39,042 bases of DNA from a virus. The stretch spans positions 1-39,042 of the IMG/VR virus record IMGVR_UViG_3300031227_012963. The stretch is one strand, 5' to 3'. The translations under genes and the position numbers were made by a program. Below are positions 1,207-37,585 of this stretch, piece by piece (the first letter of the stretch is position 1; every line of letters begins with the position of its first letter). A model generated the notes under the pieces. That model saw only the letters and a list, made by a program, of their open reading frames with translations. It was not told where the DNA came from and searched no databases.

Positions 1207-3117
1207 CTACTGTAATCCAAATCCTTTAGGACGTAATGGCAAAAATCTTCCTACAGTACCCCGTTTTTTCATAGGTCTTCTACTTTTGTTCATTTCCCTG
1301 AGTTCATTCTGTGTGATAATGGTATCAGGACGCATCAATAAACGGTGAACACCGATATAGCACTGAATCATATCGTTGTGCCCACCAGGAGGGTGATCTA
1401 CCTTTACACCATCATCATTTAATTTTTTCAACTCTTTTAAAGCTTTCGAACAAGGCATATTTCTACGAATGAATGGATCCCCTACATCATCCTCCCGTGC
1501 AGGAAAACGTATTCTTCCCTCTATCATTGAATTTAAAAAGAAAACATGATCATCTCTTGAAAAGTTCTTTTGAAACGCTAAAATACCAGCAGTTCGTAAT
1601 CGCTGAATCTGATCCGTTGAATTCCACCTATCGTACGAAACATACTTAATTGTCAACTTCTTTGCTAATTCTAAGATAACTTCTACCATAGCTGGGAAAT
1701 ACACTTCACAAGGATCGAGTCCCTGTCTATTATTCTTCGGGATTGGGCGGCATTCAATAGACCCATCTACAATAACATCATCTTCCCCAAAATGTCCTAT
1801 AGCTAAACAAAAACTATCGTTCTTTTGCCCAGGATCACAGTGAATGACATACTCTGCCAAATTACTGTACTTAACATCTAATACTTTAGGTTTTACGTAA
1901 CTAAATTCATACTCTTCAAGTTGCTCTTTAAAAAATGTCTCAGACAATGTAAAAAGAGATTTACGTTCTTTATCTATAGATAAATCTATAATTGCAGGAT
2001 TCTTTACGAACGGATTTTCTGCGCCTGGGGGATTCGCCCCGTAATCACGCTCAGCGCCTAATTCGTCAGATGCGTACTCTTCTGCCAAATCTTCTTGAGT
2101 AATATCTGGATTAAATTCCCACGTCGCTTTATGGAATGCAAACATCTTATCATTTTTTTCAGCATCTTTTAACAACTGCATTGCTTTATCGTCATCAAAT
2201 AACGGACTACTAATACAAAACATCCGAGCATCTGGTACATCATAGATGCCACGTTTACGTAATCTCTCTACAGATGCACGGATAGTAACCAATGATCGCT
2301 TAAGAACACGATACACCTCAGTAGCTGACCGGCGAGATGCACCGCCGTCCATACGACTCAACTCGTCCATAACAGCGAATATTCGTGTTTTCCCAGCAAT
2401 TGTGCCAGAGTTAGACGTTAATGATTTCAAACGAATGTGCTTATCTTTAAAATGGATGCTGTTCGCGGTTTGCCAATATAAATCACCGCGCCGTAAATCT
2501 GGATCTAAAATTTCTAAATCCATAAGTTTATTTTTATATGCTTGAAACCACGGCGATGCATCGTAAAATCCTCTAAAGTTTCCGTAAATGGTTTCACTAG
2601 CCTGCTCCCCCGATGCTGCAACAAAAGCCCCATCAATTTCCTGACTTCTTACCAAGCCCAATCTTTCTTGTAGTTTATCCACGCACAGAAGCTCATGCAC
2701 GATTGCTGCAGACATGCACGAAGCAAGCACCGATTTACCCCCGCGCATCCCAACAACACCAATCATTTCATTATACGTCCGATACATGCCCGAATTTTTC
2801 CTACGATCATACCCACACACAGGACAAACGTTGAATTCTAAAAGTAACTGATCCTTCCTAGGAACATCATTAGTAGTCATTATGCGTTCAATGTCGTTGC
2901 ACATAGGGCATAAAAGCTCAAAGAAATCCCGCACAACACAAAATTGGGGTTCATGCAATTCAGGTCCATCTAAAAACTTGGGAGATTCAATAAAGACTAC
3001 TTGATTGGGTGCTTTGTCTAAGCTAACCCGCCCACGACTACGGGGGACTACCTTAAGCTGCCCATCTAACAATCCACTTATCCCGAAAAAAATATCATCT
3101 TTTTTTTCATTAGTCAT
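1207..3117 (-). CDS. terL: Terminase large subunit (DNA packaging ATPase/nuclease)
   Basis: This is the packaging motor that translocates DNA into the prohead and cuts the concatemer. It has 636 residues. A four-Cys zinc site is near the N-terminus (C70, C73, C98, C101). The ATPase follows, with Walker A GMRGGKS (123-129), Walker B IFAVMDE (246-252) and a CISSP coupling motif (301-305). The C-terminal RNase H-like nuclease shows three acidic positions: D428 in HCDPGQKND, D496 in SYDRWNS and D582 in GGHNDMIQC. The ATG at 3117 has AAGGG upstream and overlaps the WYL gene by 8 bp. The zinc site between the extreme N-terminus and the ATPase is an extra compared with minimal terminases. No small terminase gene is evident in the window. 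Confidence 0.93.
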   Translation of the reverse strand: MTNEKKDDIFFGISGLLDGQLKVVPRSRGRVSLDKAPNQVVFIESPKFLDGPELHEPQFCVVRDFFELLCPMCNDIERIMTTNDVPRKDQLLLEFNVCPVCGYDRRKNSGMYRTYNEMIGVVGMRGGKSVLASCMSAAIVHELLCVDKLQERLGLVRSQEIDGAFVAASGEQASETIYGNFRGFYDASPWFQAYKNKLMDLEILDPDLRRGDLYWQTANSIHFKDKHIRLKSLTSNSGTIAGKTRIFAVMDELSRMDGGASRRSATEVYRVLKRSLVTIRASVERLRKRGIYDVPDARMFCISSPLFDDDKAMQLLKDAEKNDKMFAFHKATWEFNPDITQEDLAEEYASDELGAERDYGANPPGAENPFVKNPAIIDLSIDKERKSLFTLSETFFKEQLEEYEFSYVKPKVLDVKYSNLAEYVIHCDPGQKNDSFCLAIGHFGEDDVIVDGSIECRPIPKNNRQGLDPCEVYFPAMVEVILELAKKLTIKYVSYDRWNSTDQIQRLRTAGILAFQKNFSRDDHVFFLNSMIEGRIRFPAREDDVGDPFIRRNMPCSKALKELKKLNDDGVKVDHPPGGHNDMIQCYIGVHRLLMRPDTIITQNELREMNKSRRPMKKRGTVGRFLPLRPKGFGLQ

Positions 3118-3694
3118 TTTTACCCTTTAATTTATCAACTATATCCCAGCGAGGAGTGAAGGTAAACACAGATTTTTCTATCCCACGCATCCTACCAATT
3201 TTAAAAATTCGTATACTACCAGCGTCAAGGTCATACCCATACAAGATAATTTCCCCAGCAGAATTCATAGTAAGCTTGTACGGCTCCACAGACCGGCTAG
3301 AAGGGTCCTTTGCCCCCTTCGAGTAGTAGGCGAAGTCTACAACAGACTTACTGCCCATAGCGGCGCGTATCGCCTCTACTGGCTTCCCTTGCGGCGGAGC
3401 ATCAGCGTGAACATCATCTACTACCGATTTTTCCTTAGAATGTTTCGCGGGTCTTTCACGTAACGTAATAAGATTCATCTTTTTACTTTTTTTATTTTTA
3501 GTAATCTGATCTACAGACTTACCAAACGAAACCGTAGAATCACACTTTTCACAAAAAAATGTATCGCGATTATTAGAGGTTTCCACGAAAGATAATGGCC
3601 CACCACATCCCGGACATTCCTTCATATTTACTTGTCGTATTTTGTTTTTAGCAAGTTGCTTCTTTAGCTCGGATTTTTTTCTGTACACGTACAT
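3110..3694 (-). CDS. Zinc-ribbon plus WYL-domain protein
   Basis: This encodes about 194 residues if ATG 3694 is used. TTG 3718 and ATG 3625 (MKECPGCGG) are alternatives, and none has a good ribosome site. The N-terminal zinc ribbon is CPGCGGPLS...FFCEKCDS (two CxxC pairs). A Lys-rich linker follows, then a C-terminal segment with WYL hallmarks: VVDFAYYSKG, RSVEPYKL, LYGYDLDAG, then RIFKIGRMRGIE. WYL domains are known as ligand- or nucleic-acid-sensing modules, usually joined to an HTH in transcription factors. Here the partner is a zinc ribbon, and the gene overlaps the terminase start. A role in regulating late genes or in packaging is inference from position only. Confidence 0.75.
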   Translation of the reverse strand: MYVYRKKSELKKQLAKNKIRQVNMKECPGCGGPLSFVETSNNRDTFFCEKCDSTVSFGKSVDQITKNKKSKKMNLITLRERPAKHSKEKSVVDDVHADAPPQGKPVEAIRAAMGSKSVVDFAYYSKGAKDPSSRSVEPYKLTMNSAGEIILYGYDLDAGSIRIFKIGRMRGIEKSVFTFTPRWDIVDKLKGKND

Positions 3695-3731
3695 AGGTAC
3701 ATAATACAATACATTCAAGATAAAAGATTAA

Positions 3732-4472
3732 CTAAGATTTTGTAAATTTTGCAAAAGAATTAGCTTTTTTATATGATGAAAAGGTACCAGCATCCGTCCA
3801 CCAACCATTAAGATTAATATAATCTAATTGTCCAAAATTTAAATATGCTTTATTTATATCTGTAATTTCGTATTCGCCTCGCCAAGATTTCTTAAGATTT
3901 TTTATAAAGGAAAATACAGATGTGTCATAAACATAAAGTCCTGTAATTATGTAACTATTACTCAAAGACTCATCATACTTTTTAAGGTGCTCTAATGGAG
4001 GCTTTTCAACAAGAATCAGTTCATCTTTACTCACAATTGTCGCAACACCAAAACGCGGTAAGTCTTCTGGAGCATCCGGTTTATACAACACGATCCTGGC
4101 TGGTTGCTGTGCGTCAACCAAAATAGGCCTCAAATCGCCAGAAAACATGTTATCGCCCAGAATTACACAAATCTTGGAACGCACAAACCCCTCTGCAAGA
4201 GACAGTGCACCAGCAATGCCATCTGCATCTTCTTGCACCCGGTAAGTTATATCGCACCCAAAATCAATTCCAGATCCAAAATAATTGATAATGCTCCCAG
4301 CATGATCACGCCCAGTAACAATCATAATATCAGTTATGCCAGCCTCCACCATTTTCTCAAGGGGATGCTGAAGCATTGGACGATTTCCGACAGGAAGAAG
4401 ATGTTTGTTTACAATCGACGTTAATGGAGCAAGTCGAGAACCTGTACCCCCCGCAAGTAATAACCCACGCAT
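3732..4472 (-). CDS. Sugar-1-phosphate nucleotidyltransferase (RmlA/RfbA-like)
   Basis: The family makes NDP-sugars from sugar-1-phosphate and NTP. The 246-residue protein starts MRGLLLAGGTGSRLAPLT, the nucleotide-binding signature, followed by NKHLLPVGNRPM with the conserved Lys. ILGDNMFSG (metal-binding Asp) and VEKP follow, and a C-terminal GWWTDAGTF matches the family's sugar-binding end. The start is ATG 4472, which shares its A with the previous gene's TAA stop (TAATG). An in-frame GTG-type extension to 4559 would lie within the upstream gene and is rejected. The protein is somewhat shorter than cellular RmlA (about 290 residues), lacking the C-terminal helices, as in short glucose-1-phosphate thymidylyltransferases. 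It may supply NDP-sugar to the glycosyltransferases on the other strand. The exact base and sugar are not readable from sequence. Confidence 0.88.
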   Translation of the reverse strand: MRGLLLAGGTGSRLAPLTSIVNKHLLPVGNRPMLQHPLEKMVEAGITDIMIVTGRDHAGSIINYFGSGIDFGCDITYRVQEDADGIAGALSLAEGFVRSKICVILGDNMFSGDLRPILVDAQQPARIVLYKPDAPEDLPRFGVATIVSKDELILVEKPPLEHLKKYDESLSNSYIITGLYVYDTSVFSFIKNLKKSWRGEYEITDINKAYLNFGQLDYINLNGWWTDAGTFSSYKKANSFAKFTKS

Positions 4473-4876
4473 TAAGACACCCCATAAACAACCAGGACTG
4501 TTGTACCAATCCCTAACACAACGCCCACAGAAAACCATAAATAAGGGCTTTTGTACCATGCAGTCTGCGTATCTAAAGCAGCAGTTAACCCATTGATTTC
4601 ATCTTGTAAATACACTTTTTGATCGTTCATATTGACTAAATTTTTCTCTAATAAAGAAATTCTAACACCCCGTAATTTAATTAACTGATCTTGATTTTTC
4701 AACTGTAATTCAAGTTTTGGATATTTAACTCTAAGACCTAATAAAAACAACGCAGATTCTCGATCAAATGCTACAAAATCCACACCATCAATACTCATCG
4801 ATCTAATATCTTCACCTGCATTTGTGTTGACAACACAACAACAAAGTAAAGTAAATACAATAACTAAGAAGCGCAT
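4472..4876 (-). CDS. Exported coiled-coil protein with C-terminal membrane segment
   Basis: This encodes 134 residues. The N-terminus (MRFLVIVFTLLCCCVV) looks like a signal peptide with a plausible cleavage after NTNA. No good lipobox is present, because the cysteines are preceded by LL. The middle is heptad-like (KLELQLKNQDQLIKLRG, LEKNLVNMNDQKVYLQ). The C-terminus is a single hydrophobic span (SVGVVLGIGTTVLVVYGV). It shares its start region with the 3' end of the preceding membrane-protein gene. A signal, coiled coil and C-terminal anchor resemble a unimolecular-spanin layout, but a structural or superinfection-exclusion protein is equally possible. Confidence 0.7.
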   Translation of the reverse strand: MRFLVIVFTLLCCCVVNTNAGEDIRSMSIDGVDFVAFDRESALFLLGLRVKYPKLELQLKNQDQLIKLRGVRISLLEKNLVNMNDQKVYLQDEINGLTAALDTQTAWYKSPYLWFSVGVVLGIGTTVLVVYGVS

Positions 4877-5229
4877 CAGAACTTTACCCCTATTTTTTTA
4901 AACGCGTCTGTAATTTCATCTGCAGACATACTACCATCTAATTGAATCTCAAGTTCTCTTTTTATCTTATTGATTTCTAATTCTACTAATTTTTCATCAT
5001 CTTTAATTTTTACAATCTCAGATAAATTTATATTGTATTTCATTGATAATTTTTCTAATTTTAACTTGGACTCAAGAATCAAGATTTTATTACGCAATTC
5101 TACTATTTTTTTATTACGGTGGCCCCACCATAAGATAAGAATAACAAACAGGAGTACACCAATAAAGAATAAAACTACTTTTGTATGGTGTTTAATCCAT
5201 ACCCAAATTTTTCCTAATATTTTTTCCAT
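4876..5229 (-). CDS. Membrane-anchored coiled-coil protein (spanin-like candidate)
   Basis: This encodes 117 residues. A short basic N-terminus (KIWVWIKHHTK) precedes one membrane span at about residues 18-36 (VVLFFIGVLLFVILILWW). The rest is charged and heptad-rich (LRNKILILESKLKLEKL, LVELEINKIKRELEIQL). The layout matches inner-membrane spanins of the Rz type (N-in, periplasmic coiled coil), and the next gene is a second membrane protein, which supports a two-gene unit. No lysin or holin is recognisable nearby, so a lysis role is tentative. The ATG lies 2 nt after the metallopeptidase stop. Confidence 0.68.
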   Translation of the reverse strand: MEKILGKIWVWIKHHTKVVLFFIGVLLFVILILWWGHRNKKIVELRNKILILESKLKLEKLSMKYNINLSEIVKIKDDEKLVELEINKIKRELEIQLDGSMSADEITDAFKKIGVKF

Positions 5230-5231
5230 GG

Positions 5232-5852
5232 TTAGTCGTCTTCAAATAAATCTTCATCATCCTCATCTTCATTGTTCACTTTCTCTTCTTCATCTTCCTC
5301 AATCTCTTCCTCAATCTCTTCCTCATCTTCCTCAATTTTTTCAGCATCTTCAGCATCTTCATCCAGGTCAGAATCAGGATCTCCCAATTTGATATTCTTG
5401 ATTTTATCAGATACTAAATTACCAAGTTTGACAAGATTTACAGTATAAAGTCCATGTCGTTTTATAATTTCACCAAATTCTTCAACATCATGTGGTAAAA
5501 TTTTTATTTTGGTATCTCCAGTTTTTTCATCCTCTTCAACCCAGCAATGGGAAAGTTCATGATCAATCACAGCAATTCTAATAGACTCATCTAAATTTTT
5601 CCATTTTGGATATGCTACAGTAATAATAAAATCATATCCAGATAATACTTTATTTTTTGTAGAAATCTTTTCAGCAGTTGCAACTACTTCACGTCCTTTC
5701 ATTTTTATATCTTTATTTTTAAAAAGGTATGCAATTTTACAACTTACAAGATGTTTATGATATTGTCCAATTAATGGTTTTGCATACTTTTCTACTTCTG
5801 GTGCAGGATCATAACTAATTGGTATCCTCTTTACTTGCGTTCCTTTTGCCAT
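5232..5852 (-). CDS. Putative phage metallopeptidase with acidic tail
   Basis: This encodes 206 residues from ATG 5852, with GAAAGGA upstream. A TTG one codon earlier is possible but less likely. The zinc-protease signature HELSH occurs at about residues 98-102, preceded by the hydrophobic IRIAVID, and an Asp/Glu-rich segment follows (LPHDVEEFGEII) that could supply the third ligand. The size and pattern fit the family annotated as putative phage metallopeptidase. The last 45 residues are a Glu/Asp run that is probably disordered. It is the first gene of the leftward operon, next to the divergent control region. The substrate is unknown. Confidence 0.8.
   Translation of the reverse strand: MAKGTQVKRIPISYDPAPEVEKYAKPLIGQYHKHLVSCKIAYLFKNKDIKMKGREVVATAEKISTKNKVLSGYDFIITVAYPKWKNLDESIRIAVIDHELSHCWVEEDEKTGDTKIKILPHDVEEFGEIIKRHGLYTVNLVKLGNLVSDKIKNIKLGDPDSDLDEDAEDAEKIEEDEEEIEEEIEEDEEEKVNNEDEDDEDLFEDD
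5236..5370 (-). repeat. Low-complexity GAA/GAT tract (acidic tail of metallopeptidase)
   Basis: The coding strand is an imperfect GAA/GAG/GAT repeat encoding EEIEEEIEEDEEE-type sequence at the C-terminus of the metallopeptidase. It is a third-strand purine-rich tract like the other acidic tails in the window. Confidence 0.8.
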
Positions 5853-6008
5853 CAATTAAATCCTTTCAATGAAGTTTTGATGCTCACCAGATAATACTCC
5901 AAGTGTTTATAAAAAGTTTATTAATAATTTAGAAGGTGGTGGGGATTAGGACACCCGCTACCACCTGCGTTAGCAGGTAACTGTATTTAATATATCATTG
6001 TTAAGATC

Positions 6009-6099
6009 CTTATATAAATCTCTTGTACAAATGCCTTATTAAAGATCCTTGTATAAGTCACTTGTATAAGGCCCTTGTATGTGTCCCTTGTACAAGACC
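6009..6099. repeat. Seven tandem 13-bp iteron-like repeats
   Basis: Units start at 6009, 6022, 6035, 6048, 6061, 6074 and 6087, each exactly 13 bp. The core is CTTGTAYAAG, which is itself palindromic, followed by a 3-bp spacer. The last four units are the cleanest (CTTGTATAAGTCA, CTTGTATAAGGCC, CTTGTATGTGTCC, CTTGTACAAGACC), and the first three are more degenerate. A weaker eighth unit may lie at 5996-6008. The 13-bp period is a little over one helical turn, so bound dimers would spiral gradually around the DNA. Iterated palindromic sites at a divergent gap suggest a replication origin or a cooperative operator. Confidence 0.85.
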
Positions 6100-6111
6100 C
6101 TGGCCCCAGGG
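6098..6111. repeat. Perfect inverted repeat, 6-bp arms
   Basis: CCCTGG and CCAGGG flank a 2-bp centre, directly after the last 13-bp repeat. It is GC-rich in an AT-rich setting and is likely a protein site or a short hairpin. Confidence 0.7.
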
Positions 6112-6122
6112 GTAAACATAGT

Positions 6123-6144
6123 CCCTTACCCTTAAGGGTAAGGG
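6123..6144. repeat. Perfect 22-bp palindrome
   Basis: The two arms CCCTTACCCTT and AAGGGTAAGGG abut with no spacer. It lies 54 bp upstream of the TATAAT hexamer and 99 bp upstream of the first rightward gene. A dimeric repressor or activator site is the simplest reading. A T-run follows at about 6150-6156, but no rightward gene lies upstream for it to terminate. Confidence 0.85.
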
Positions 6145-6197
6145 TTAACTTTTTTTCACCAAAAACCTGCACGAAAAAACCCGATATTGCAGTTGAG

Positions 6198-6203
6198 TAT
6201 AAT
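6198..6203 (+). promoter_or_regulatory. Candidate -10 element for the rightward operon
   Basis: A perfect TATAAT hexamer lies 40 bp upstream of the first rightward ATG. No convincing TTGACA-like -35 element is found 16-18 bp upstream, so the promoter would depend on an activator, or the match may be chance in AT-rich DNA. Confidence 0.35.
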
Positions 6204-6243
6204 ATCATGGACGAAACGAAATCTTAACCTTTGAGAGGGTGCA

Positions 6244-7290
6244 ATGGCGAAAAAGAATTCAATAGCGAAAAAAAAGAATGAAGAAATTGTAGTAAAGTTA
6301 AATGCAAAAAAAAATTTAGTATTATTTATACAAGGGGGTGCAGGAGACATCCTTGCACAAACTCCTATGATTAGAAGTTTCCGAAATAAATACCCTGATG
6401 ACAATTTAATTGTATTGTCTACGTATTCACAACTTCTAGAAGGAAATACACATATCGATAAAGTGTATCCTTTGGCTGACCCAGAAGATTTTTTTTCAAA
6501 GTACTTATTTGAAAAACCTGTAAGATTTTATAAAAAACATTTTATATATGATCACCTACTCGACGAGTGTGCTGAGGGTGTAACATCCTTACCCGAGTTT
6601 GCATGTGCTGCGTATGGGATAGATTACGACGGCGGTCCTCCCGACTACACCGTTTCTGATGAAGAGCATGCCATTGTAAAAACCTTCCTTGGACAGTATG
6701 GCCCAGAAAATAACCGCGTGCCCATTGTTTTGCTCCACTGCACAGGGTCGATTCCATCCGATGGACAAATGAATAAAGTGCACACATCAAAGGATTTAAA
6801 CATAGAAACTGCCGCCGAGGTTGTTAAGCATTTTGAGGGTAAAATACGATTTATTCAAATAGGGCTTGAAGGTGAAGCGGTTGTTCCAGGCGCGATTGAT
6901 GCACTAGGTATGCCTATGCGTGAAGCTATCGCTATGATCCCTCATACAGATAGTTTCTTATTTATTGAGAGTATTTTTGCACATGCGGCAGCTGCATTCA
7001 GTGCTCCCGGAGTTATTCTCTACCAAAATACATCTCCAGACTTTTTCAAATATCCGGGGTATTCTGAAGCTATCAAGGTCTATGATAGCGGTAATTGCCC
7101 CCACTGGCCCTGTAACCGCCCGCTGGGTGCCTTGATGGACCTCATGCCTGGGTACCATAACCCCAAGACACGTGAACGTCTGCTATGGCGTTGTGATACG
7201 AATCTGTGCCGGAATATCAAATCGTCTGAACTTATCAAAGCACTGGAAGCTACTTTAGCTCCCAAATCTGAGAAAAAAGATGACAAGTAA
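6244..7290 (+). CDS. Glycosyltransferase, GT9/heptosyltransferase-like
   Basis: This encodes 348 residues. A Lys-rich N-terminus precedes FIQGGAGDILAQTPMIR, the G-x-G-D-x-L-x-x-T-P signature of the GT9 (ADP-heptose:LPS heptosyltransferase) fold. A second Rossmann-like half contains IRFIQIGLEGE and SFLFIESIFAHAAAAF, matching the family segment in which an E-S/G-x-x-x-H pattern contacts the nucleotide sugar. Cysteines cluster near the end (NCPHWPCNRP, WRCDTNLCRN), a common finish in GT9-like phage proteins. It is the first gene of the rightward operon, with GAGAGG just before the ATG. The donor and acceptor are unknown. Confidence 0.82.
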   Translation: MAKKNSIAKKKNEEIVVKLNAKKNLVLFIQGGAGDILAQTPMIRSFRNKYPDDNLIVLSTYSQLLEGNTHIDKVYPLADPEDFFSKYLFEKPVRFYKKHFIYDHLLDECAEGVTSLPEFACAAYGIDYDGGPPDYTVSDEEHAIVKTFLGQYGPENNRVPIVLLHCTGSIPSDGQMNKVHTSKDLNIETAAEVVKHFEGKIRFIQIGLEGEAVVPGAIDALGMPMREAIAMIPHTDSFLFIESIFAHAAAAFSAPGVILYQNTSPDFFKYPGYSEAIKVYDSGNCPHWPCNRPLGALMDLMPGYHNPKTRERLLWRCDTNLCRNIKSSELIKALEATLAPKSEKKDDK

Positions 7291-12873: not shown

Positions 12874-13617
12874 TTGTTAGATCTAACTGTTATAATAGCT
12901 TGTAAAAATAGGAAAGAAAATCTCGATTATTGCTTGAGGTCTATCTCTGGTGGATCTATACTTCCAAAGGTGTACATTGTGGATTTTGGAAATAAAACAC
13001 CAATAAAGACACCGTATAAGTGGGTAAAGGTTATCAGAGTTACCAATAACACTGAGAAGTTTCATAAGGCGCGGGCTGTAAATATTGGTTTAAAACAGGT
13101 GAAAACGAAATATGCATGTGTTACAGACGCAGATCAAATTTTTAGCAAAAACTTTTTTAGTACAGTAGTGAGGGCACTGGAGGAAAACTCTAAAAGGTTT
13201 ATAATGTGCAAAACATATGCTTTGCAAGGTATCCCTAAGACAGTACAACCAGAAAGTGTTTTTGAAAAATACGGGGTACTTTTAAAGTTGGCAAAGAAAA
13301 CTAGGGATGCCTATGGTGACGGGTGCTGCCATGCAACGCTAGCGTCTTGGTTTAGGAGGACGGGTGGGTATGAAGAATCTTTTTTGGGGTGGGGGTATGA
13401 AGATAGTGATATGGCTTGGAGAGCGCGAAAGCTTGGTTTGACTTTATATAGTATAAACAGACATGTCTCTATGATTCATTTGCCACATCCGATAGAAACA
13501 CAAGTCGGGGGATATAGGCACAAGCATGTTGAGAGGACTAATAAGGTACGCTATGCAAAGAGAAGACAAAGGGGCATTTTAGTTGGAAATGTGGGTAGAA
13601 AGTGGGGGATACTTTGA
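12874..13617 (+). CDS. Glycosyltransferase family 2, galactosyltransferase-like end
   Basis: This encodes 247 residues from a TTG start with AGAGGT 8 nt upstream. The N-terminus LTVIIACKNRKENLDYCLRS is the GT2 nucleotide-binding strand. DADQIF serves as the DxD site. The C-terminal GWGYEDSDMAWRARKLGL is the acceptor/catalytic motif seen in galactosyltransferase and polypeptide-GalNAc-transferase-like enzymes (GWGxEDxD). From here to about 18.46 kb, Arg is often AGG, unlike flanking genes. A shortened paralogue lies at 18465. Confidence 0.87.
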   Translation: MLDLTVIIACKNRKENLDYCLRSISGGSILPKVYIVDFGNKTPIKTPYKWVKVIRVTNNTEKFHKARAVNIGLKQVKTKYACVTDADQIFSKNFFSTVVRALEENSKRFIMCKTYALQGIPKTVQPESVFEKYGVLLKLAKKTRDAYGDGCCHATLASWFRRTGGYEESFLGWGYEDSDMAWRARKLGLTLYSINRHVSMIHLPHPIETQVGGYRHKHVERTNKVRYAKRRQRGILVGNVGRKWGIL

Positions 13618-13913
13618 AAATATTTGTTGATATAGATGGAACTATTTGTCGTACAAAGGATGCAAATTATTCGGAAGCGGTACCCATCCATGCAAGTATA
13701 CAAAAGATAAATAAGCTTTATGACTTAGGGCACGAAATTATTTTTTGGACTGCTCGTGGGTCTGCAAACAAAGAAGAGTCTACTGAAATCCTAAATATAA
13801 CTAACAAGCAGCTACAGGAGTGGGGTTGCAGGTATACACAATTATCAGTGGGTGAAAAGCCCGTGTATGACCTACTGATATGTGATAAATCTGTCAGGAT
13901 CGATGAGTTATGA
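13614..13913 (+). CDS. HAD-superfamily phosphatase, small
   Basis: This encodes 99 residues from TTG 13614, which overlaps the previous TGA (TTGA) and has GGGGGA upstream. GTG 13602 is an alternative. The catalytic motif I is FVDIDGTIC (DxDGT). Motif II is FWTARGS. A Lys lies in VGEKPVYDLLICDKS, and the Asp of ICDKS fits motif IV. The cap domain is absent (C0 type). Lying directly before the DUF115-like, NeuA and NeuB genes, it could be the phosphatase for a nonulosonate-9-phosphate, but other sugar phosphates are possible. Confidence 0.8.
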   Translation: MKIFVDIDGTICRTKDANYSEAVPIHASIQKINKLYDLGHEIIFWTARGSANKEESTEILNITNKQLQEWGCRYTQLSVGEKPVYDLLICDKSVRIDEL

Positions 13914-14566
13914 AATCTGTAGCTAAATTGGCTGGTAGGCATAAGAATAAGGACATCTACGTTATAGGTGCGGGACCTTCTTGTAATTTTCTTAGTAGAT
14001 CTTTTTTCAATGGCAAAATAGTAGTTGGTGTTAATCAGACATATAAGAAGTTTCCATGTAACTATGTAGTTCGCAAAGAGCATAGCGATGTGGTGAAAAC
14101 TCTAAAGATGGCTCCAAAGTCTTTTGTTATTGTTTCAAAACTGAATTATGGATCTGCGAAGTCTAAGATAGCTGGTATAACCCATAATAATTTGCATATT
14201 TTTAATCATCTACTAAATAAGGGAGCTATAAATACAGCTTCATTTGGAAAGCCTGGGTTTTTAGTAGTGAGTAACTCTACCATTACATCAGCTATCCATT
14301 TTGCATACGTCTTAGGAGCAGCTAACATTATTTTAGTTGGTGCCGACCACGGGACACTAGATGACAAATTTGTGTATGATGGCTATTATGAAGATATAAA
14401 GCAAACACCTTGGAAGAATTGGGAACAATATGTAGGATGGTTAAAAATTCTCAGTAAGGATACCGAGAGTATCAGCGCTAAAATACGTGAAAAGGGTGTT
14501 AATGTTGTTAGCTTAAACCCATTTATAAACTTTGGGTTAGAAGGGCACATATACAAGTATGGGTAA
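13910..14566 (+). CDS. DUF115/GT42-like putative glycan transferase
   Basis: This encodes 218 residues. The N-terminus has YVIGAGPSCNF, the G-x-GPS motif shared by DUF115 (MptE/Maf-like) and GT42 sialyltransferase-type folds. Later, NSTITSAIHFAYVLGAANII is followed by LVGADHGTLDD, matching the conserved helix-strand-Asp segment of these families. It has no signal or membrane span. Maf and GT42 proteins transfer nonulosonic acids from CMP donors, and the next two genes make such a donor, so a CMP-nonulosonate transferase is a reasoned but unproven assignment. A 6-hydroxymethylpterin-pyrophosphokinase-type role is less likely in this context. It is joined to its neighbours by ATGA and 8-bp overlaps. 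Confidence 0.65.
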   Translation: MKSVAKLAGRHKNKDIYVIGAGPSCNFLSRSFFNGKIVVGVNQTYKKFPCNYVVRKEHSDVVKTLKMAPKSFVIVSKLNYGSAKSKIAGITHNNLHIFNHLLNKGAINTASFGKPGFLVVSNSTITSAIHFAYVLGAANIILVGADHGTLDDKFVYDGYYEDIKQTPWKNWEQYVGWLKILSKDTESISAKIREKGVNVVSLNPFINFGLEGHIYKYG

Positions 14567-15194
14567 TTATACTATAGTCGTGCCAGCGCGTAGCGGTTCA
14601 AAGGGTGTACCCCATAAGAACAGGATGCTCATTCAGAGTACTCTTAACATAGTTTCGGAGTCTATGCGTACGCACACTATAATTACCACTGATGACGAGG
14701 TTATCATTGAAGCATATCAAGGTAATCATATAGTTCATAGGCGAAGCATTGCGACTAGTTCTGATACAGCCTCTATGAAGTCTGTGATGTTAGAGGTGGT
14801 TAACGCCGGACTTTTGGGAGCAGAAAATATTATCGTATTATATCCAACGTATCCTACAAGGACATGGGAAGATGTTTTGGATGCCATTAATTTTTTTGAA
14901 CGATCTGCTGCGAAATCATTACTATGTAGGATACCGTATATTGGTCAAAGCCCTTACCTTTTAATGCATCCTGTTGGAGAGTATTGTGGGAGACAGGTTA
15001 TAGATCACGACTTGTATAGAAGGCAGGATTATTTACCTGTGTTTGAGCTTTCTCATTGCGTTTGCATTTTTTCTGCGTCTATTCTTCATGAGTTAAATCA
15101 AAATTTGTACAACAGAGATACTGTGTTTATGGACATGTGCAAGAAAGTGGACGTAGACACAGAACAGGATATAAGCACATGGAAACAAAACTGA
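14559..15194 (+). CDS. neuA: CMP-nonulosonate cytidylyltransferase (NeuA-like)
   Basis: The family activates sialic-type acids with CTP to CMP-sugar. The 211-residue protein has the signature ARSGSKGVPHKN near the N-terminus, TTDDEVIIEA, then TSSDTASMKSVMLEVV (the Asp region of the substrate pocket), and ends with KKVDVDTEQDI, which matches the conserved DIDTxxD end of NeuA. It is slightly short for a bacterial NeuA (about 225-230 residues) and has no acetylesterase domain. The loop after the first motif lacks the usual GKPLI, reading LIQSTLNIV instead. It overlaps NeuB by 16 bp. Which nonulosonic acid is used cannot be told. Confidence 0.85.
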   Translation: MGNYTIVVPARSGSKGVPHKNRMLIQSTLNIVSESMRTHTIITTDDEVIIEAYQGNHIVHRRSIATSSDTASMKSVMLEVVNAGLLGAENIIVLYPTYPTRTWEDVLDAINFFERSAAKSLLCRIPYIGQSPYLLMHPVGEYCGRQVIDHDLYRRQDYLPVFELSHCVCIFSASILHELNQNLYNRDTVFMDMCKKVDVDTEQDISTWKQN

Positions 15195-16033
15195 TAGGTG
15201 AAATAGGTATAAACTATGCTTTTGGTGATGACAAGCAGAATTTTGTCGGTAATGCAAAAAAGTTAATTTTTATAGCGTCAATAGCTGGGTGGGGGTACGT
15301 GAAACTCCAAACGAGGACACCAGATGTTTGTGTACCAGAAAGTGAGAAAGGGTTGCCAAAGCAAGTACCCTGGTCTTCACAGCCAACAACTTATTTGGGG
15401 TATAAAAAAGATGTGGAATTTTCTAAGGATGCCTATGTAGAGCTTCGTGAATATGCTGCATCATTAGGTTTAACTCTTTTTTCATCTGTTTGGGATATTC
15501 AGGCAGTTGATTTTCTTCGTGATATTTCTGCTAATAAGATTTTGAAGATTCCTTCGGCTCTATTAACTAACACCTCTTTACTAAGGTATGCTAGGAAAAA
15601 CTGTGAGCTACTCATACTCTCTACTGGAATGAGTACGGAGGATGAGATTGAGATAGCTGTAAGGGAGGGGGAGCCCGATGTGTTGATGCACACAGTGTCT
15701 GCATACCCAGCTATCGTTGAAGACCTGAATTTGCAGTACATAACGTGGTTAAAACAGAAGTATGGACATAAATGTTGTATTGGGTATTCAGGGCACGAGT
15801 TTGGGCTAACTATGTCTATTGTCGCTGCGGTACTAGGCGCTGAATGGGTAGAGCGCCATATTACATTAGATAGAACCCTTTGGGGGTCAGACCAGTTAGC
15901 TAGTGTGGAACCGGTCGGTATGATAAAGCTAAAAAAGTCGTTGGATGATGTGCAAAAGGCTTTTGTTAATTTTCCCGGTCCACGGAAGGTACATCTTTCA
16001 GAAATGGAAAAAGTAAAATCTCTACGTGGGTAA
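15179..16033 (+). CDS. neuB: Nonulosonic acid synthase (NeuB-like), SAF-less
   Basis: The family condenses PEP with an amino- or keto-hexose to form a sialic-type acid. ATG 15179 gives 284 residues. An extension to 15137 would lie inside neuA and is rejected. TIM-barrel landmarks are GEIGINYAFGD, YVKLQTRTPDV, KIPSALLTNTSLL, LILSTGMSTEDEIE, LMHTVSAYPA, then IGYSGHEFGL and VERHITLDRTLWGSDQ ahead of ASVEP. Bacterial NeuB is about 340 residues with a C-terminal antifreeze-like SAF domain. Here the protein ends just after the SLRG segment, so that domain is missing. In dimeric NeuB the SAF domain covers the partner's active site, so activity may differ. Confidence 0.87.
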   Translation: METKLIGEIGINYAFGDDKQNFVGNAKKLIFIASIAGWGYVKLQTRTPDVCVPESEKGLPKQVPWSSQPTTYLGYKKDVEFSKDAYVELREYAASLGLTLFSSVWDIQAVDFLRDISANKILKIPSALLTNTSLLRYARKNCELLILSTGMSTEDEIEIAVREGEPDVLMHTVSAYPAIVEDLNLQYITWLKQKYGHKCCIGYSGHEFGLTMSIVAAVLGAEWVERHITLDRTLWGSDQLASVEPVGMIKLKKSLDDVQKAFVNFPGPRKVHLSEMEKVKSLRG

Positions 16034-16036
16034 CTA

Positions 16037-17101
16037 ATGAGAATACTGCACATATATGCAACTGTCAATAATTCTGGCGATCAGATGATCGGGTATGCAA
16101 CACGCCTCATGTTTGAGAGGTACGTTAAAGTAACGGGTTGGGTTAGTGAGAATATTAGAAAGGTTTTTAACTATGATGATGTAAAGAAAATTAATACGTT
16201 TGATGCCGTGGTAGTTGGCCCAGGAGGAATTTTTTTGTATGACGAGACAAATTCAAAGGCTGGCACAAGGGAGATATCTGGATACCAATGGTTGATTTCT
16301 GAGGCACTCCTTAGTAAGATAAAAGTTCCAGTACTGGTTGTAGCTGCTGGTTGGAACCAGTTTCGTGGTAGGGCTGCTTTGTACCCGACCACTCTGAAAG
16401 GGATATCTGACTTAATTTCTAAGTCTAGCTATTTTTCTGTTCGACATACCGGTGATGCCCATAGTTTAGAAAATTTTCTTCATTTGCATGAAGGTAGTGT
16501 TAAAGTATTTATGTGCCCAACCTTGTTGCTTGGCACGTCTCATAAGGCAGAAGTGCAAAGAAAGCGAATTTTAGCCATTCAGATTGCGGGGGATAGACCT
16601 AAACTTCGTTATACCGTTGGAATAAAAAGAACTTATGAAATTCTTTCAGAGTACATATCGGTAATGTCGAAGGACTTCCCGGAGATACATATAGTTGACC
16701 AGTGTTGTGATACAGGATTTTTTAAATTTATAAAGGAACGAAGAAAAGATGTGAAATTTGTTTCATTGGTAAACAAGTCACTAGACCAGCAGCTAACGTA
16801 TTATAAAGAAATAGGGGTGATGTTGGCCACTAGAGGGCATGCCCAAATGATCCCAATAGGATGCGCTACCCCAACTGTTTCTCTAATAACGCACAATAAA
16901 GTAGCGTATTTCTTGGATGACCTAAAAAGGCTAGCTCCTGCTTCACGAATTTCTGAGACGGGGGTAGATATTACGCGGGTAAGGTCAGGTGATCTGGTGC
17001 AGGCGACACGTATAGCACGTTCGCTGGACTACACTTTGGTGAACAGTGCTATAGAGAAATCTATTATAGCTTCTTTCCAAGAAATGTTGAGTATTTTATG
17101 A
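16037..17101 (+). CDS. Polysaccharide pyruvyl transferase-like protein
   Basis: This encodes 354 residues starting MRILHIYATVNNSGDQMIGYA, the N-x-GD motif of the CsaB/WcaK-type pyruvyl transferase family. AVVVGPGGIFLYDE follows, then VPVLVVAAGWNQF, SYFSVRHTGDAHSL and a C-terminal LATRGHAQMIPIGCATP, which corresponds to the family's R-x-H active-site segment. These enzymes add ketal-pyruvate from PEP to sugars of surface polysaccharides. It fits a glycan-decorating role and uses the same PEP pool as NeuB. Confidence is good for the family and lower for the precise reaction. Confidence 0.82.
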   Translation: MRILHIYATVNNSGDQMIGYATRLMFERYVKVTGWVSENIRKVFNYDDVKKINTFDAVVVGPGGIFLYDETNSKAGTREISGYQWLISEALLSKIKVPVLVVAAGWNQFRGRAALYPTTLKGISDLISKSSYFSVRHTGDAHSLENFLHLHEGSVKVFMCPTLLLGTSHKAEVQRKRILAIQIAGDRPKLRYTVGIKRTYEILSEYISVMSKDFPEIHIVDQCCDTGFFKFIKERRKDVKFVSLVNKSLDQQLTYYKEIGVMLATRGHAQMIPIGCATPTVSLITHNKVAYFLDDLKRLAPASRISETGVDITRVRSGDLVQATRIARSLDYTLVNSAIEKSIIASFQEMLSIL

Positions 17102-17736
17102 CTTGTCCTGTTTGTCAATCCCCAGATGTTATTCATAAGGTGGCTACTAGTTCCTTTTTTAATTTAGATATAGATCAGTGTAACTTCTGTGGTCTTAGTT
17201 GGGTTAACAGGGGCGATGATCAGGTTAGCGAGGTGGAAGAACAAAAAAAGTTTGACCACATTTTTGGTACAAACAGGAAAAGAAACGAGTATTATTTAGA
17301 GAAATTATGTGCTTTTTCTGACGTGAAAACTGTTTTGAAAGTTGGCTCACCAAAAGATTTTTCGTTTTTGCTAGAGATTGGGAGAAGGTATCCATTTATT
17401 CACCTTTTTTCTTATGATTTATTACATAAGGATACACCAAAAAATGTGGAACCAATCAGCGACATCACAGAGTACTACTCTATAATTTTTTGTATCCACA
17501 CGTTAGAGCATATTTTGCCTACTGATACCCAGGCTGTAGTAGCTAAAATGGTTAATCATTGTGATTATTTATTCTTGGAAGTACCTAACTGCCATTCAAT
17601 TGATCGTTTATGTGAGAGTAGCAAGCACCCGCACAACGTGTTCTTTACTAAGAAGTCGCTGACTAACTTATTAGGAACTGACTCTATTTGCAGAACTACA
17701 AATCATGTAATTCAGATTGAGAGAAAAAATGTATAA
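17098..17736 (+). CDS. Zinc-finger SAM methyltransferase-like protein
   Basis: This encodes 212 residues, linked by ATGA overlap to the previous gene. The N-terminal zinc site has C3, C6, C29 and C32 (TCPVCQS, then QCNFCGLSW), as in sugar methyltransferases with a zinc-binding head. The Rossmann part shows VLKVGSPKDFSFLLEIG in place of the usual glycine-rich motif I, so SAM binding looks weakened. IIFCIHTLEHILP matches the post-motif region, and FLEVPNCHS the later strand. It could methylate a sugar of the glycan, or be a degenerate relative. Confidence 0.72.
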   Translation: MTCPVCQSPDVIHKVATSSFFNLDIDQCNFCGLSWVNRGDDQVSEVEEQKKFDHIFGTNRKRNEYYLEKLCAFSDVKTVLKVGSPKDFSFLLEIGRRYPFIHLFSYDLLHKDTPKNVEPISDITEYYSIIFCIHTLEHILPTDTQAVVAKMVNHCDYLFLEVPNCHSIDRLCESSKHPHNVFFTKKSLTNLLGTDSICRTTNHVIQIERKNV

Positions 17737-18463
17737 CGTAGATGTAGTGATTATTAGCTGGGCAAAGACCAAAGAGCTATACGACATTACGTGGAATGGA
17801 CTTTCTTCTTTATTTGGATGTAAGCCAACCATGGCGTATCATGCTTATGTTGTTGAGTCAAACCCAGATGTTACGTATGACCAGTTTAATTCTGATGTGC
17901 ATACATGTACAACTATCCACCCCACTACAGAATTTGGGTATAACAAATATTTAAATATTGGTAGAAGGTTAGGAAAGTCAGAGTACGTGGTTCTTTGTAA
18001 TAATGACTTGACTTATGATTGCGGGTGGGCTGCTAATATTATAAGAGAGATGAACAAAGATGCAGACCTTTTATCTGCTTCTCCTTGGTGTCCTCAGATA
18101 CATAGAGACAGGCATAAGAAGGGAAATGTGGGGAATTGTGTTTATGGGTATAGTATAATTACTAAGGTTACTGGATGGTGCATTTTTCAGAAGAGGAAGA
18201 TATATGATTTACTTGGTGATTTAGATGAGCGTTTTGTATTTTGGTATAGTGACAATGATTATTGTATGACTATTCGAGAGAAGGGTATTAAACATGCTTT
18301 AGTTATTAACTCTTGGGTGGAACATCATGGAAAACGTGTTGGCAAAACTGCGGATAATGTATTATCAAAAGAAAAACTAAGAACATATACATCATTGCAA
18401 AAGAAAATATTTTTGAATAAATGGAAAAATATAAATAATATACTAGTAAGCCCTAAGGATTAA
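17729..18463 (+). CDS. Glycosyltransferase family 2
   Basis: This encodes 244 residues from ATG 17729, inside the end of the previous gene (8-bp overlap). A TTG at 17717 is less likely. GT2 features are VDVVIISWAKTKELYD at the N-terminus, YVVLCNNDLTYDCGW (the donor/metal site), VTGWCIFQKRKIYDLLGDLD, and FVFWYSDNDYCMTIREKGI with the catalytic acidic pair. The protein resembles the soluble GT2 enzymes at 10289 and 19809. The AGG-rich coding style fades out in its second half. Confidence 0.83.
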   Translation: MYNVDVVIISWAKTKELYDITWNGLSSLFGCKPTMAYHAYVVESNPDVTYDQFNSDVHTCTTIHPTTEFGYNKYLNIGRRLGKSEYVVLCNNDLTYDCGWAANIIREMNKDADLLSASPWCPQIHRDRHKKGNVGNCVYGYSIITKVTGWCIFQKRKIYDLLGDLDERFVFWYSDNDYCMTIREKGIKHALVINSWVEHHGKRVGKTADNVLSKEKLRTYTSLQKKIFLNKWKNINNILVSPKD

Positions 18464-18464
18464 C

Positions 18465-18998
18465 ATGAGTAAACTAACTGTAATATTAGCTCATAAAAAT
18501 AGACAACATAATTTAGAGTTTTGCTTAGAATCTATTAATTCATCAAATAAAATACCTCGTGTTATATTGGTTGATTTCGGAAGTACCATACAACCAAGAT
18601 ATACATATCCATGGTTACAAATTATTCATGTAACACATAATACCGATTTTTTTCAAAAAGCACGAGCTTTAAATATTGGAATTAGGCAGACAAAAACTGT
18701 TAATTTGTGTACTACTGATGTTGATCAGATATTCAATAAAAATTTTTTTAGTGTAGTTGATAATACACTTACTACGCGTAAAAGTGTGTATGTAATGTGT
18801 CGTACGTACGTATTGCGTGAATTGCCTTCAACTATTTCCCCCAAAAACATAATGATAAATTTTGATAAACTTTTAATAGAAGCAAAAAAAATAAGAAAAA
18901 TACCATTTGGTGATGGATGTTGTCATGGGATGCCTACATATGTTGCGCATGCATTAGGAGGGTATGATGAAAGTAGCAGATTATTCGCAAAAACATGA
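18465..18998 (+). CDS. Truncated glycosyltransferase family 2 (paralogue of 12874)
   Basis: This encodes 177 residues and aligns with the 247-residue gene at 12874 almost from end to end of its first 165 residues: LTVILAHKNRQHNLEFCLES, ARALNIGIRQTK, DVDQIFNKNFFSVV, then GDGCCHGMP and ALGGYDES. It then ends with RLFAKT, where the paralogue has the GWGYEDSD catalytic segment. No GWGxEDxD remnant is readable in the 119 bp after the stop. Thus the acceptor/catalytic C-terminal third is missing. It may be a decayed gene or a retained donor-binding fragment. Codon use (CGT/AGA for Arg) matches the rest of the phage, unlike its paralogue. Confidence 0.75.
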   Translation: MSKLTVILAHKNRQHNLEFCLESINSSNKIPRVILVDFGSTIQPRYTYPWLQIIHVTHNTDFFQKARALNIGIRQTKTVNLCTTDVDQIFNKNFFSVVDNTLTTRKSVYVMCRTYVLRELPSTISPKNIMINFDKLLIEAKKIRKIPFGDGCCHGMPTYVAHALGGYDESSRLFAKT

Positions 18999-19117
18999 CA
19001 AATGAGTTATACATTGTGACAATAATAAAAATTGCGCAACCAGAACAGGCGTAGTAAAAAAATTGATTAATATAAGTTATAAAATCAGGTTATTATGAAA
19101 TTTTTCTAGGAGACTAT
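18999..19117. other. Non-coding gap after truncated glycosyltransferase
   Basis: These 119 bp carry no open frame with a usable start. They are AT-rich apart from a short GC patch at about 19034-19051, and end in TAGGAGAC, the ribosome site for the next gene. No clear terminator hairpin is seen. The gap may be what is left of the missing end of the truncated gene. Confidence 0.5.
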
Positions 19118-19831
19118 GTGAATGATGTTATTTCAGTATTAGTTCTTACATATAATAGACGTAATATTGTCTCTATGTGTCTCCCATACATCGCAGAACA
19201 TTTAGAAAAATCAAATTCTGAGATATTAATCTGGGATAATGGATCAACTGATGGAACATTAGATTGGATTTTTCAGTTCGCACATTCAAATACAAAAAAT
19301 AAAATCAATGTATTTTTTTCTGAAAAAAATTATGGAGTTGAAGCTATTAATTTTTTAGTAGACAAAACTGTAGGAGAATATATCATAAAAGTGGACAGTG
19401 ATATAATTCCGCCCGTTCAGTATGATACGCGTATGTTAACCGCTTATATAGCATGTGCAAAGGAAAACATTGCTTACTTATCTTGGGATATTCCTTGGGG
19501 GCACACATCTTTTGCCAAACGTTCTGGTATGAAATTGTATAAAGGTGATCGAGGAACTATTGTGTCTGTTACCCCTAATACACGCGTACTCTGTAATTAT
19601 GCTCCAAGCAAATGGATGGTGAATGGTGCGTGCAGATTTTCAGAAAAAGATGTATTTACTAAACTGGGTAGTCATCCACAAGGTAAGCGGTATGGAGTAG
19701 ACACGTATGTGAGTGCTCAGGCCGAGAAAGCTGGTTATACATGTGGATTCATAGACACCCACGATAAGGCACAGCACATCACACAAATGGATATTATGGA
19801 GAAAATCTATGGCAAAACATCAACCACTTAG
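19118..19831 (+). CDS. Glycosyltransferase family 2
   Basis: This encodes 237 residues from GTG 19118, with AGGAG upstream. The N-terminus ISVLVLTYNRRNIVSMCL and ILIWDNGSTDGTLDWI are classical GT2 strand-loop motifs. EYIIKVDSDIIPP carries the DxD metal site. The middle contains WMVNGACRFSEKDVFTKLG, and the end GVDTYVSAQAEKAGY replaces the usual ED acceptor motif. It overlaps the following GT2 gene by 23 bp, so the two are probably translated together. Confidence 0.86.
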   Translation: MNDVISVLVLTYNRRNIVSMCLPYIAEHLEKSNSEILIWDNGSTDGTLDWIFQFAHSNTKNKINVFFSEKNYGVEAINFLVDKTVGEYIIKVDSDIIPPVQYDTRMLTAYIACAKENIAYLSWDIPWGHTSFAKRSGMKLYKGDRGTIVSVTPNTRVLCNYAPSKWMVNGACRFSEKDVFTKLGSHPQGKRYGVDTYVSAQAEKAGYTCGFIDTHDKAQHITQMDIMEKIYGKTSTT

Positions 19832-20615
19832 TATTATTATTCCTGTCGTTAATCAACCTGAAATGACTGTGCGGTGTTTTCAGTCAATACGTGCAAATAC
19901 AAAAATGCCGTATGAGATAATTTGGGTTGATAATAATTCAGATCCTGAAAGCTTTGGAATAATTAGAAGACAAGCTACGCGTCCTAGAGTTAATTGTAAA
20001 TTGATACGAAATGAATACAATGTTGGTTTTATCAAAGCAATAAACCAAGGTATTGCAGAAGCTAAAGGTGAATACATAATTTTGTTAAACAATGATACAG
20101 AGGTAACGTGGCGATGGGCTACAAAATTAATAAAACCACTTATTAATGATAAAAAGGTTGGAGCGGTAGGCCCCGTCACACAAAGTAAAATTGCCTGGCA
20201 AGAAGCAATGAGTCTTAATGCTCGTTGGGATTTAGGCCTACCCAAGTACACAAAAGCACAAAAAAATAGATATGGTAAAGTACTCGATGAACTATTCAAA
20301 GACAGATATATTGATGTAGAACGCCTACCTCTGTCTTTTTTCTGTGCTGCTTTTCGGAGAAGTACGTTCACAGAGCTTGGCGGTCTTTGTGAGGAGTTTT
20401 CTATCGGCTTAGGTGATGATGACGAGTATGGGATGCGTATGCGCGCAAATGGCTTTAAATCGCTTCTCAGCCTGGGTACCTTCGTGTATCACGCACATCG
20501 AACAACGTTCAATGCTCTGCAATTGGGTGTGGATTCTTTGCGGAGGTACAACATGAAAATTTTGCGAAGAAAAGAAAAAGAATTAAAGGCTGCTGAAAAA
20601 AAGAAGGCGATATAG
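19809..20615 (+). CDS. Glycosyltransferase family 2
   Basis: This encodes 268 residues with GGAG before the ATG. Motifs are LSIIIPVVNQPEMTVRCFQS, IIWVDNNSDPES, NVGFIKAINQGIAEAKGEY, ILLNNDTEVTWRWATKL (metal site), VGAVGPVTQ, FFCAAFRRSTFTELGGL and IGLGDDDEYGMRMRANGF (catalytic DDD region). This is the typical rhamnosyl/glycosyltransferase layout of large-phage and O-antigen GT2 enzymes. The C-terminus is Lys/Glu-rich and probably disordered. It closes the glycan block, and replication genes follow 12 bp later. Confidence 0.88.
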   Translation: MAKHQPLSIIIPVVNQPEMTVRCFQSIRANTKMPYEIIWVDNNSDPESFGIIRRQATRPRVNCKLIRNEYNVGFIKAINQGIAEAKGEYIILLNNDTEVTWRWATKLIKPLINDKKVGAVGPVTQSKIAWQEAMSLNARWDLGLPKYTKAQKNRYGKVLDELFKDRYIDVERLPLSFFCAAFRRSTFTELGGLCEEFSIGLGDDDEYGMRMRANGFKSLLSLGTFVYHAHRTTFNALQLGVDSLRRYNMKILRRKEKELKAAEKKKAI

Positions 20616-22097: not shown

Positions 22098-22615
22098 ACG
22101 TAGACGAAATATTGTTGAATGATGCGGTGTGGTCCCAGGATCCTGTTGAACGCCATCTTATGAAGAAGATTATTAACTTGACAAAACAGAATGCTCGGTT
22201 AAAAGAACACATAGAAAGTACGAGTACGTTGTCGAAGTCGCGTCCAATAGATACGTGGACGCCTTTTAACTTCTTTCATTATTTTTGTACGAAGTACCGG
22301 GAGCGTTACAACCGTGAATTCAAGAAAAATGGAAATGTTGCCAGGGTATATTTCAAAATTGATTCATTTAGAACCTCTAATAGTATATCAAAAGAAGATT
22401 ACAAAAAATTCATAGATTCTGCTTTTTTTGGCTATTTTAATAACGTAAATACGCCAACTGTTTCCCATATCTGTAGTGCCAAACTATATAATTATTTGAT
22501 GGCTCCAGACACGGACGTTACGTCCGCAGATGACTTGCGGGCACTTGATAAAGTACTTGCTACTGAAAACTCTGACTTTGAGCAGTACATGGACGAGATA
22601 CCCTATGATGGATGA
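22085..22615 (+). CDS. Hypothetical protein beside helicase loader
   Basis: This encodes 176 residues. A short acidic helix (IDVDEILLNDAVW) and a Lys-rich helix precede TWTPFNFFHYFCTKYRERYN, then a mixed region (VARVYFKIDSFRT) and an acidic end. No motif is recognised. It is encoded between a UvsW-like helicase and a DnaC-like ATPase and overlaps both, so a replication accessory role, such as a loader partner, is a positional inference. Confidence 0.65.
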   Translation: MVPIDVDEILLNDAVWSQDPVERHLMKKIINLTKQNARLKEHIESTSTLSKSRPIDTWTPFNFFHYFCTKYRERYNREFKKNGNVARVYFKIDSFRTSNSISKEDYKKFIDSAFFGYFNNVNTPTVSHICSAKLYNYLMAPDTDVTSADDLRALDKVLATENSDFEQYMDEIPYDG

Positions 22616-30336: not shown

Positions 30337-30613
30337 AAAACGTTTTGATGTAACGTTTTCTCATAAAATGCCTACTGGAGATATTATAAGTGTGCGTTTT
30401 GGGACGACAGCATCGGTAGACGTTCCGCATTCAGAAGAGGCAGCTAAAAAATTATTTAACGATATCTATAAAGCAACAATGCAGGATATTAAGTTAAAAG
30501 TTAAACGAGATAAATTTATTAGAACAGCGTATAAAGGTTCTTTACGTGGGATTAAAAAATATGAAACAGAACAGGAAGCAATAAAACTTTTGGAGGATGG
30601 AGAAGATGAATGA
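30329..30613 (+). CDS. Hypothetical small protein
   Basis: This encodes 94 residues from ATG 30329, 8 nt after GGAG. Upstream in-frame codons lie within recA and are rejected, although ATG 30323 is also possible. The first half is beta-like (FDVTFSHKMPTGDIISVRFG), followed by a helix with many Lys (ATMQDIKLKVKRDKF). No known family is recognised. It overlaps recA by 8 bp and the next gene by 4 bp (ATGA). Confidence 0.65.
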   Translation: MIEKRFDVTFSHKMPTGDIISVRFGTTASVDVPHSEEAAKKLFNDIYKATMQDIKLKVKRDKFIRTAYKGSLRGIKKYETEQEAIKLLEDGEDE

Positions 30614-31179: not shown

Positions 31180-31190
31180 TAGGAGAGCAC

Positions 31191-34887: not shown

Positions 34888-34902
34888 CGTTGGAGTCTTT
34901 GT

Positions 34903-37568: not shown

Positions 37569-37585
37569 ACAATTTGGAGAGAAGT

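Follow-up and report, generated by a model that had tools for sequence, protein, structure and literature searches.

In a large tailed phage, the two divergent operons are parted by a single large intergenic gap (positions 5856-6243), which carries a tandem array of near-palindromic 13-bp units. We hold at about even confidence that this gap is the iteron-type, bidirectional theta-replication origin of the phage lineage. The window analyzed here covers all 39,042 bases of an IMG/VR virus record that is classed as linear. It is a fragment of a large tailed phage with no near relatives in the phage collection. Megablast of its first 25 kb (1-25000) against 50,697 phage records gave no match, a distant blastn search of the gap returned two weak matches only, both to Spiroplasma phage, and the terminase was at most about 31% identical to phage-collection proteins among the matches listed.

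Open reading frames of the window and its relatives were called mechanically. The window encodes a large terminase, a phage metallopeptidase, many glycosyltransferases, a DnaB-like helicase, a DnaC-like loader, a CHC2 primase domain and a family A DNA polymerase; RecA, SbcCD-like proteins and ribonucleotide reductase were read by eye from the translations. The genes that bear on the gap are the following:

5232-5855, minus strand: phage metallopeptidase (Pfam PF18894), first gene of the left (terminase) operon
6244-7290, plus strand: glycosyltransferase, family 9-like, first gene of the right (replication) operon
22085-22615, plus strand: 176-residue all-helical protein, directly before the helicase loader
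22530-23354, plus strand: DnaC-like helicase loader (PHROG 50)
23354-24739, plus strand: DnaB-like replicative helicase

Four further regions of the window were recorded. A zinc-ribbon and WYL domain protein (3110-3718) adjoins the terminase gene, as it does in most relatives; WYL domains often accompany regulators. A large block of glycosyltransferase and sugar-modification genes occupies 12874-20615 and is partly replaced in the relatives G003 and G005. The protein at 25193-26668 joins a sigma-factor-like N-terminus (PHROG 1740, 3e-4) to a long Glu-rich repeat region. The zinc-ribbon-like protein at 37574-38056 has an HTH-like C-terminal part (by eye), is 57-62% identical in the relatives and ranks with the best-conserved proteins of unknown function in the lineage.

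The core array spans 6009-6096 and consists of seven head-to-tail units, each a 10-bp near-palindrome of the CTTGTAYAAG type followed by a 3-bp spacer. The units start at 6009, 6022, 6035, 6048, 6061, 6074 and 6087, and their sequences are, in order, CTTATATAAA, CTTGTACAAA, CTTATTAAAG, CTTGTATAAG, CTTGTATAAG, CTTGTATGTG and CTTGTACAAG. Tandem Repeats Finder (TRF) reported a period of 13, 7.2 copies and a score of 69/78, and the TRF score of the gap was reached by none of 500 dinucleotide shuffles of it. The self-pairing summed at phase 13 was 26/35, while the maximum in 2000 shuffles was 23 (0/2000 reached 26), and by phase-13 palindrome score the array was the top place of the whole 39 kb window. 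The preliminary description of seven exact 13-bp units was thus borne out. It had also given all units a shared CTTGTAYAAG core, each a palindrome. The core is exact in three units only (6048, 6061 and 6087), and the palindromes were stated too strongly: the units form 4, 4, 3, 4, 4, 2 and 5 of 5 self-pairs in order, so that one is perfect, four have 4/5 pairs and two are weaker.

At two or fewer mismatches, CTTGTAYAAG occurred 108 times in the whole window, array included, against 82 expected, with both strands of the near-palindrome counted; the matches outside the array are single and scattered. The single-strand fold of 5930-6150 was more stable than 200/200 shuffles (z -3.9), as expected from the repeated near-palindromes and three further hairpins. 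An Rfam search gave no match, the pattern CTTGTAYAAGNNNCTTGTAYAAG had no match in the viral contigs (viral_contigs), and our literature search on the motif and on 13-bp phage iterons found nothing pertinent. A CRISPR array, already set aside in the preliminary description, is excluded by the 13-bp period with 3-bp spacers, since CRISPR spacers are unique and 25-45 bp long. The longest of the small open reading frames across the array had no family match.

The other elements of the gap surround the array as follows:

5891-5896, minus strand: TATTAT, predicted -10 box of the metallopeptidase/structural operon
5935-5962: hairpin with a 9-bp stem, between the array and the metallopeptidase gene
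5963-5978: hairpin ACCTGC-GTTA-GCAGGT
5984-6043: AT-rich stretch that reaches into the weak end of the array; least stable 60 bp of the gap, ranking within the top 0.9% of the contig for instability
5996-6005: degenerate in-register unit CATTGTTAAG, 6/10 match
6098-6111: hairpin CCCTG-GCCC-CAGGG, overlapping the next in-register position, where a second degenerate unit, CTGGCCCCAG, starts at 6100
6123-6144, plus strand: perfect 22-bp palindrome, CCCTTACCCTTAAGGGTAAGGG, with a T-run after it, resembling a terminator on the plus strand
6198-6203, plus strand: TATAAT, predicted -10 box of the glycosyltransferase/replication operon

Both gene blocks diverge from this gap, in agreement with the placement given earlier. 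The AT-rich flanks of that account hold on the left, where the least stable 60 bp begin at 5984 and make a candidate DNA-unwinding element; the right flank is instead a GC-richer run of hairpins (6098-6111 and 6123-6144). The promoters are predictions, with the -10 boxes picked by eye. TATAAT also stands upstream of the first gene of the glycosyltransferase/replication operon in L015, L016 and L018, with TATTAT there in G011. A box resembling the TATTAT at 5891-5896 is present in L015, L016, L018 and L026, and in most relatives the first genes are preceded, at a distance of about 30-45 bases, by -10-like boxes.

Two other roles for the array were tried and rejected. A small RNA across the array, ending at the 6123-6144 hairpin, has a weak promoter-like site upstream, but on inspection the gaps of the relatives have no matching terminator. 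The array as a row of -10 boxes was suggested by the resemblance of TTGTATAA to the operon's TGTATAAT, and was dropped when the L015 units were found to lack such a sequence.

Since the array lies midway between the two predicted divergent -10 boxes, it could be a cooperative operator, in which a regulator dimer would bind each palindromic unit, spread along the array and switch both promoters. This is the main rival of the origin, and we regard it as possible but unlikely. Operators of tandem palindromes, such as MetJ-like and multi-site phage operators, are made of short near-palindromic sites suited to dimers, and the units here are of that kind. Regulator candidates are present in the phage, namely the zinc-ribbon/WYL protein beside TerL and the zinc-ribbon protein at 37574-38056, whose HTH was seen by eye only. 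However, the edges of the array are about 95-110 bp from each predicted -10 box, too far for direct occlusion, and no linked repressor gene was found, in both respects unlike those operators. The 13-bp spacing would also place adjacent dimers on different faces of the helix. CI-like HTH_3 proteins and integrase are absent from the window, G003 and G005, and hence there is no sign of a lysogeny switch.

The relatives were found through the terminase, metallopeptidase, glycosyltransferase and replication proteins; all genomes compared are fragments, partial and up to 145 kb long. Terminase searches gave seven contigs at about 50-67% identity; L026 and L104-L106 came from searches with the metallopeptidase and with the 22085-22615 protein. 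G003 and G005 share nearly all window genes in mirror-image synteny, except for a variable block at about 13.6-17.7 kb, and the fragment L015 does so for the genes that it covers. Of the independent gaps, four have arrays, a further one is weak (G004), one is truncated (L026) and one has no array (G011). The glycosyltransferase-metallopeptidase gaps of L015, G003/L016 and G005/L018 hold clusters of tandem repeats or palindromes:

L015, 2108-2197: CTTAACAAG / CTTGTAAGG, period 12-13
G003, about 54710-54930 (L016 4320-4540): TAGGCTA in 4.7 copies, CCTAATATTAGG and CCTTAAGG
G005, 56502-56614 (L018 4591-4703): CAGACACAGAAG and TCATTAAAAGGAG, period 12

G004 has a glycosyltransferase homolog (54% identity) with a repeat- and hairpin-rich region upstream and differently arranged arms, and in L026 the contig end cuts the gap inside a palindrome-rich stretch. 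CTTGTAYAAG was found in none of the relatives' gaps; its palindromic matches in the relatives are single, one at G005 57190, within the metallopeptidase gene, and one at G007 45384, close to the terminase. The repeat sequence differs from phage to phage, so CTTGTAYAAG itself is not conserved, while the position and the repeat or palindrome character of the site are.

In the window, L015, G003, G005 and G004 (about 344 kb), all non-coding TRF arrays scoring at least 50 lie upstream of the glycosyltransferase operon, in gaps that make up about 1% of this DNA. In each of these gaps the real TRF score was reached by 0/500 shuffles. A repeat born of slippage, or a structural one, in a fast-evolving gap and without specific function would suit the lack of sequence conservation and the general enrichment of hairpins in the gap, as well as the strong structure of one further gap in G005. 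Yet such repeats occur independently again and again at a single position, and nowhere else in the non-coding DNA of the 344 kb, and we give this explanation the smallest share of all. Local fold energies are unusually low in the gaps upstream of the glycosyltransferase operon; since two control gaps, G003 4174-5747 and G005 118552-118866, have structure of their own, the hairpins are less position-specific than the tandem repeats. The gaps hold DNA within the least stable 0.9% (window), 0.1%, 0.2% and 0% of their contigs, a result to be read with the AT-richness of the promoters in the same gaps.

A DNA-packaging (pac) or partition, centromere-like site was weighed on the same comparison. Repeat arrays are known at some pac and parC sites, and the terminase gene is 2.9 kb from the gap. 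ParB was absent (0/6 records), which makes a ParABS system unlikely. The sequence is wholly different between phages whose terminases are 60-67% identical, and the gap is not beside TerL in every relative (about 4 kb away in L015 and 80 kb in G011). A packaging role is possible but unsupported, and we consider pac and partition together very improbable.

The cumulative GC-skew check proposed earlier was run, and a switch is present at the gap. G003 (91 kb) and G005 (121 kb) each have one major switch of strand and of GC skew, and it lies at the gap. The cumulative G-C minimum falls at 54819 in G003 and 56556 in G005, both inside the repeat clusters, and at 6182 in the window. The genes mostly run outwards from the gap, an orientation that would produce the same picture through coding-strand skew alone and that explains part of the switch. 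In the right arm of G005, however, the GC3 skew of antisense genes was -0.06 (n=7, a small sample) compared with +0.18 for sense genes (n=37; p 0.0004), and four of the seven antisense genes have family matches. This difference suggests that part of the G005 skew is bound to the arm and not to the coding strand.

G011 departs from this arrangement. Its arms are rearranged, the structural and replication blocks are co-directional without a skew switch of the G003/G005 kind, and its gap has hairpins, no tandem array, and an insertion with TnpB and EF-G. This state fits an origin that was moved or rearranged; equally, it shows that the array is not universal in the wider group. The insertion, at G011 32190-35692 (L121 12190-15692), lies beside the glycosyltransferase gene in DNA of higher GC, and a chimeric contig is possible. 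It holds a TnpB-like (IS200/IS605 OrfB) frame, seen by eye, and an elongation factor G homolog (Pfam GTP_EFTU 2e-63, PHROG 6880).

Taken together, these comparisons favor an origin over an operator, the two readings offered at the outset. The position is conserved while the repeats are replaced between relatives, strand and skew switch there in G003 and G005, the DNA is locally unstable, no second array stands at other promoters or elsewhere in the contigs, and the -10 boxes are distant; some repeats of the relatives, such as TCATTAAAAGGAG of L018, are not palindromic, which speaks against an operator. An array far above chance and the confinement of all non-coding arrays of that score to one gap also count for the origin, and several tandem direct repeats of one unit adjoin an AT-rich, easily melted stretch, as in iteron origins. 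In such an origin, a putative phage-encoded initiator would bind cooperatively along the array, to the 13-bp units of 5996-6106, and the bent, wrapped DNA would open the AT-rich stretch at about 5984-6043. The DnaC-like loader of the phage could then place the DnaB-like helicase, and two forks would leave in opposite directions, each moving in the reading direction of the genes on its own arm.

The search for the initiator turned up no protein that binds the array specifically and gave one candidate, the 22085-22615 protein, chosen by gene order only. Its only match was a PHROG without known function. An AlphaFold model from the single sequence was poor (pLDDT 39); a model from six sequences reached pLDDT 73 and was all-helical, with no match to PDB or viral structures at E<=0.001. 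Rep_3 was negative in the window, G003 and G005, and RepA_N was not found among the subset of window proteins scanned with Pfam. An exact DnaA box (TTWTNCACA), expected of a DnaA-dependent origin, is absent from the gaps of the window, L015 and L016; the gaps of L018 and L026 have a single exact match each. Iterons of well-studied replicons are often 17-22 bp. The short 13-bp unit counts against the origin, as do the Rep_3 result, the lack of an informative fold match for the candidate, the absence of an exact DnaA box from the window gap, the confounding of skew with gene orientation, and the G011 gap.

In many iteron systems the initiator autoregulates. The site could likewise be an origin whose initiator also controls the divergent operons; both roles fit a site that lies at the skew switch with divergent promoters on either side. 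No initiator gene lies beside the array, and the putative replication cassette of small protein, loader and DnaB is 16 kb away; we think this dual role improbable.

Two known systems resemble the origin proposed here. At oriL/oriR of SPP1, gp38 binds direct repeats beside an AT-rich unwinding element, gp39 is the loader and gp40 the DnaB helicase, in the order gp38-gp39-gp40 (PMC6316719). The window likewise has direct repeats next to an AT-rich stretch, and the gene order small protein, helicase loader, DnaB helicase. However, oriL lies inside gene 38, whereas the array occupies a divergent gap at a distance of 16 kb from the cassette, and no relation between the small protein and any known initiator was detected. 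In PLE, the satellite of the Vibrio phage ICP1, the origin and its iterons lie in a non-coding region between divergent operons (PMC7145576). Its RepA_N replicon modules are exchanged, and the iteron and the initiator DNA-binding domain are replaced between relatives (PMC7145576, PMC8263062). The array shares with PLE the semi-palindromic direct repeats and the non-coding place between divergent operons, although PLE has three iterons of about 30 bp in a 2.7 kb region and the window seven units of 13 bp.

A more speculative extension, which we consider doubtful as a whole, is that the origin keeps its place between the arms while the iteron set and the DNA-binding part of an undescribed initiator are replaced wholesale from phage to phage. 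The sets exchanged would be the 13-bp CTTGTAYAAG, the 12-13-bp CTTAACAAG/CTTGTAAGG, the 7-bp TAGGCTA with CCTAATATTAGG, and the 12-bp TCATTAAAAGGAG; pressure from satellites or nucleases that target origins could, for instance, drive such replacement. The four differing clusters at one homologous position can be used to look for a co-varying protein. The gap gives a testable origin position for a group of large environmental phages that has no cultured member among those found in the phage collection. Should replication start there, the turnover of repeats at one constant site would be a natural experiment in the change of initiator specificity.

Several minor observations were made in the relatives. 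At L009 10792-13608, L093 16345-19644, G003 30395-34123 and G005 28262-31333, intein-like insertions were seen by eye in ribonucleotide reductase and a portal-like protein, and G003 and G005 each have their family A DNA polymerase match split within one open frame. L017 encodes a sigma-70 family protein with regions 2 and 4 (4868-5497). A stretch of about 22 bases, GCGAGCGYAGCGAGCCGCTTTT, is nearly identical in the gaps of L015 (about 2403-2424) and L026 (about 260-281), two phages whose proteins are only about half identical to those of the window.
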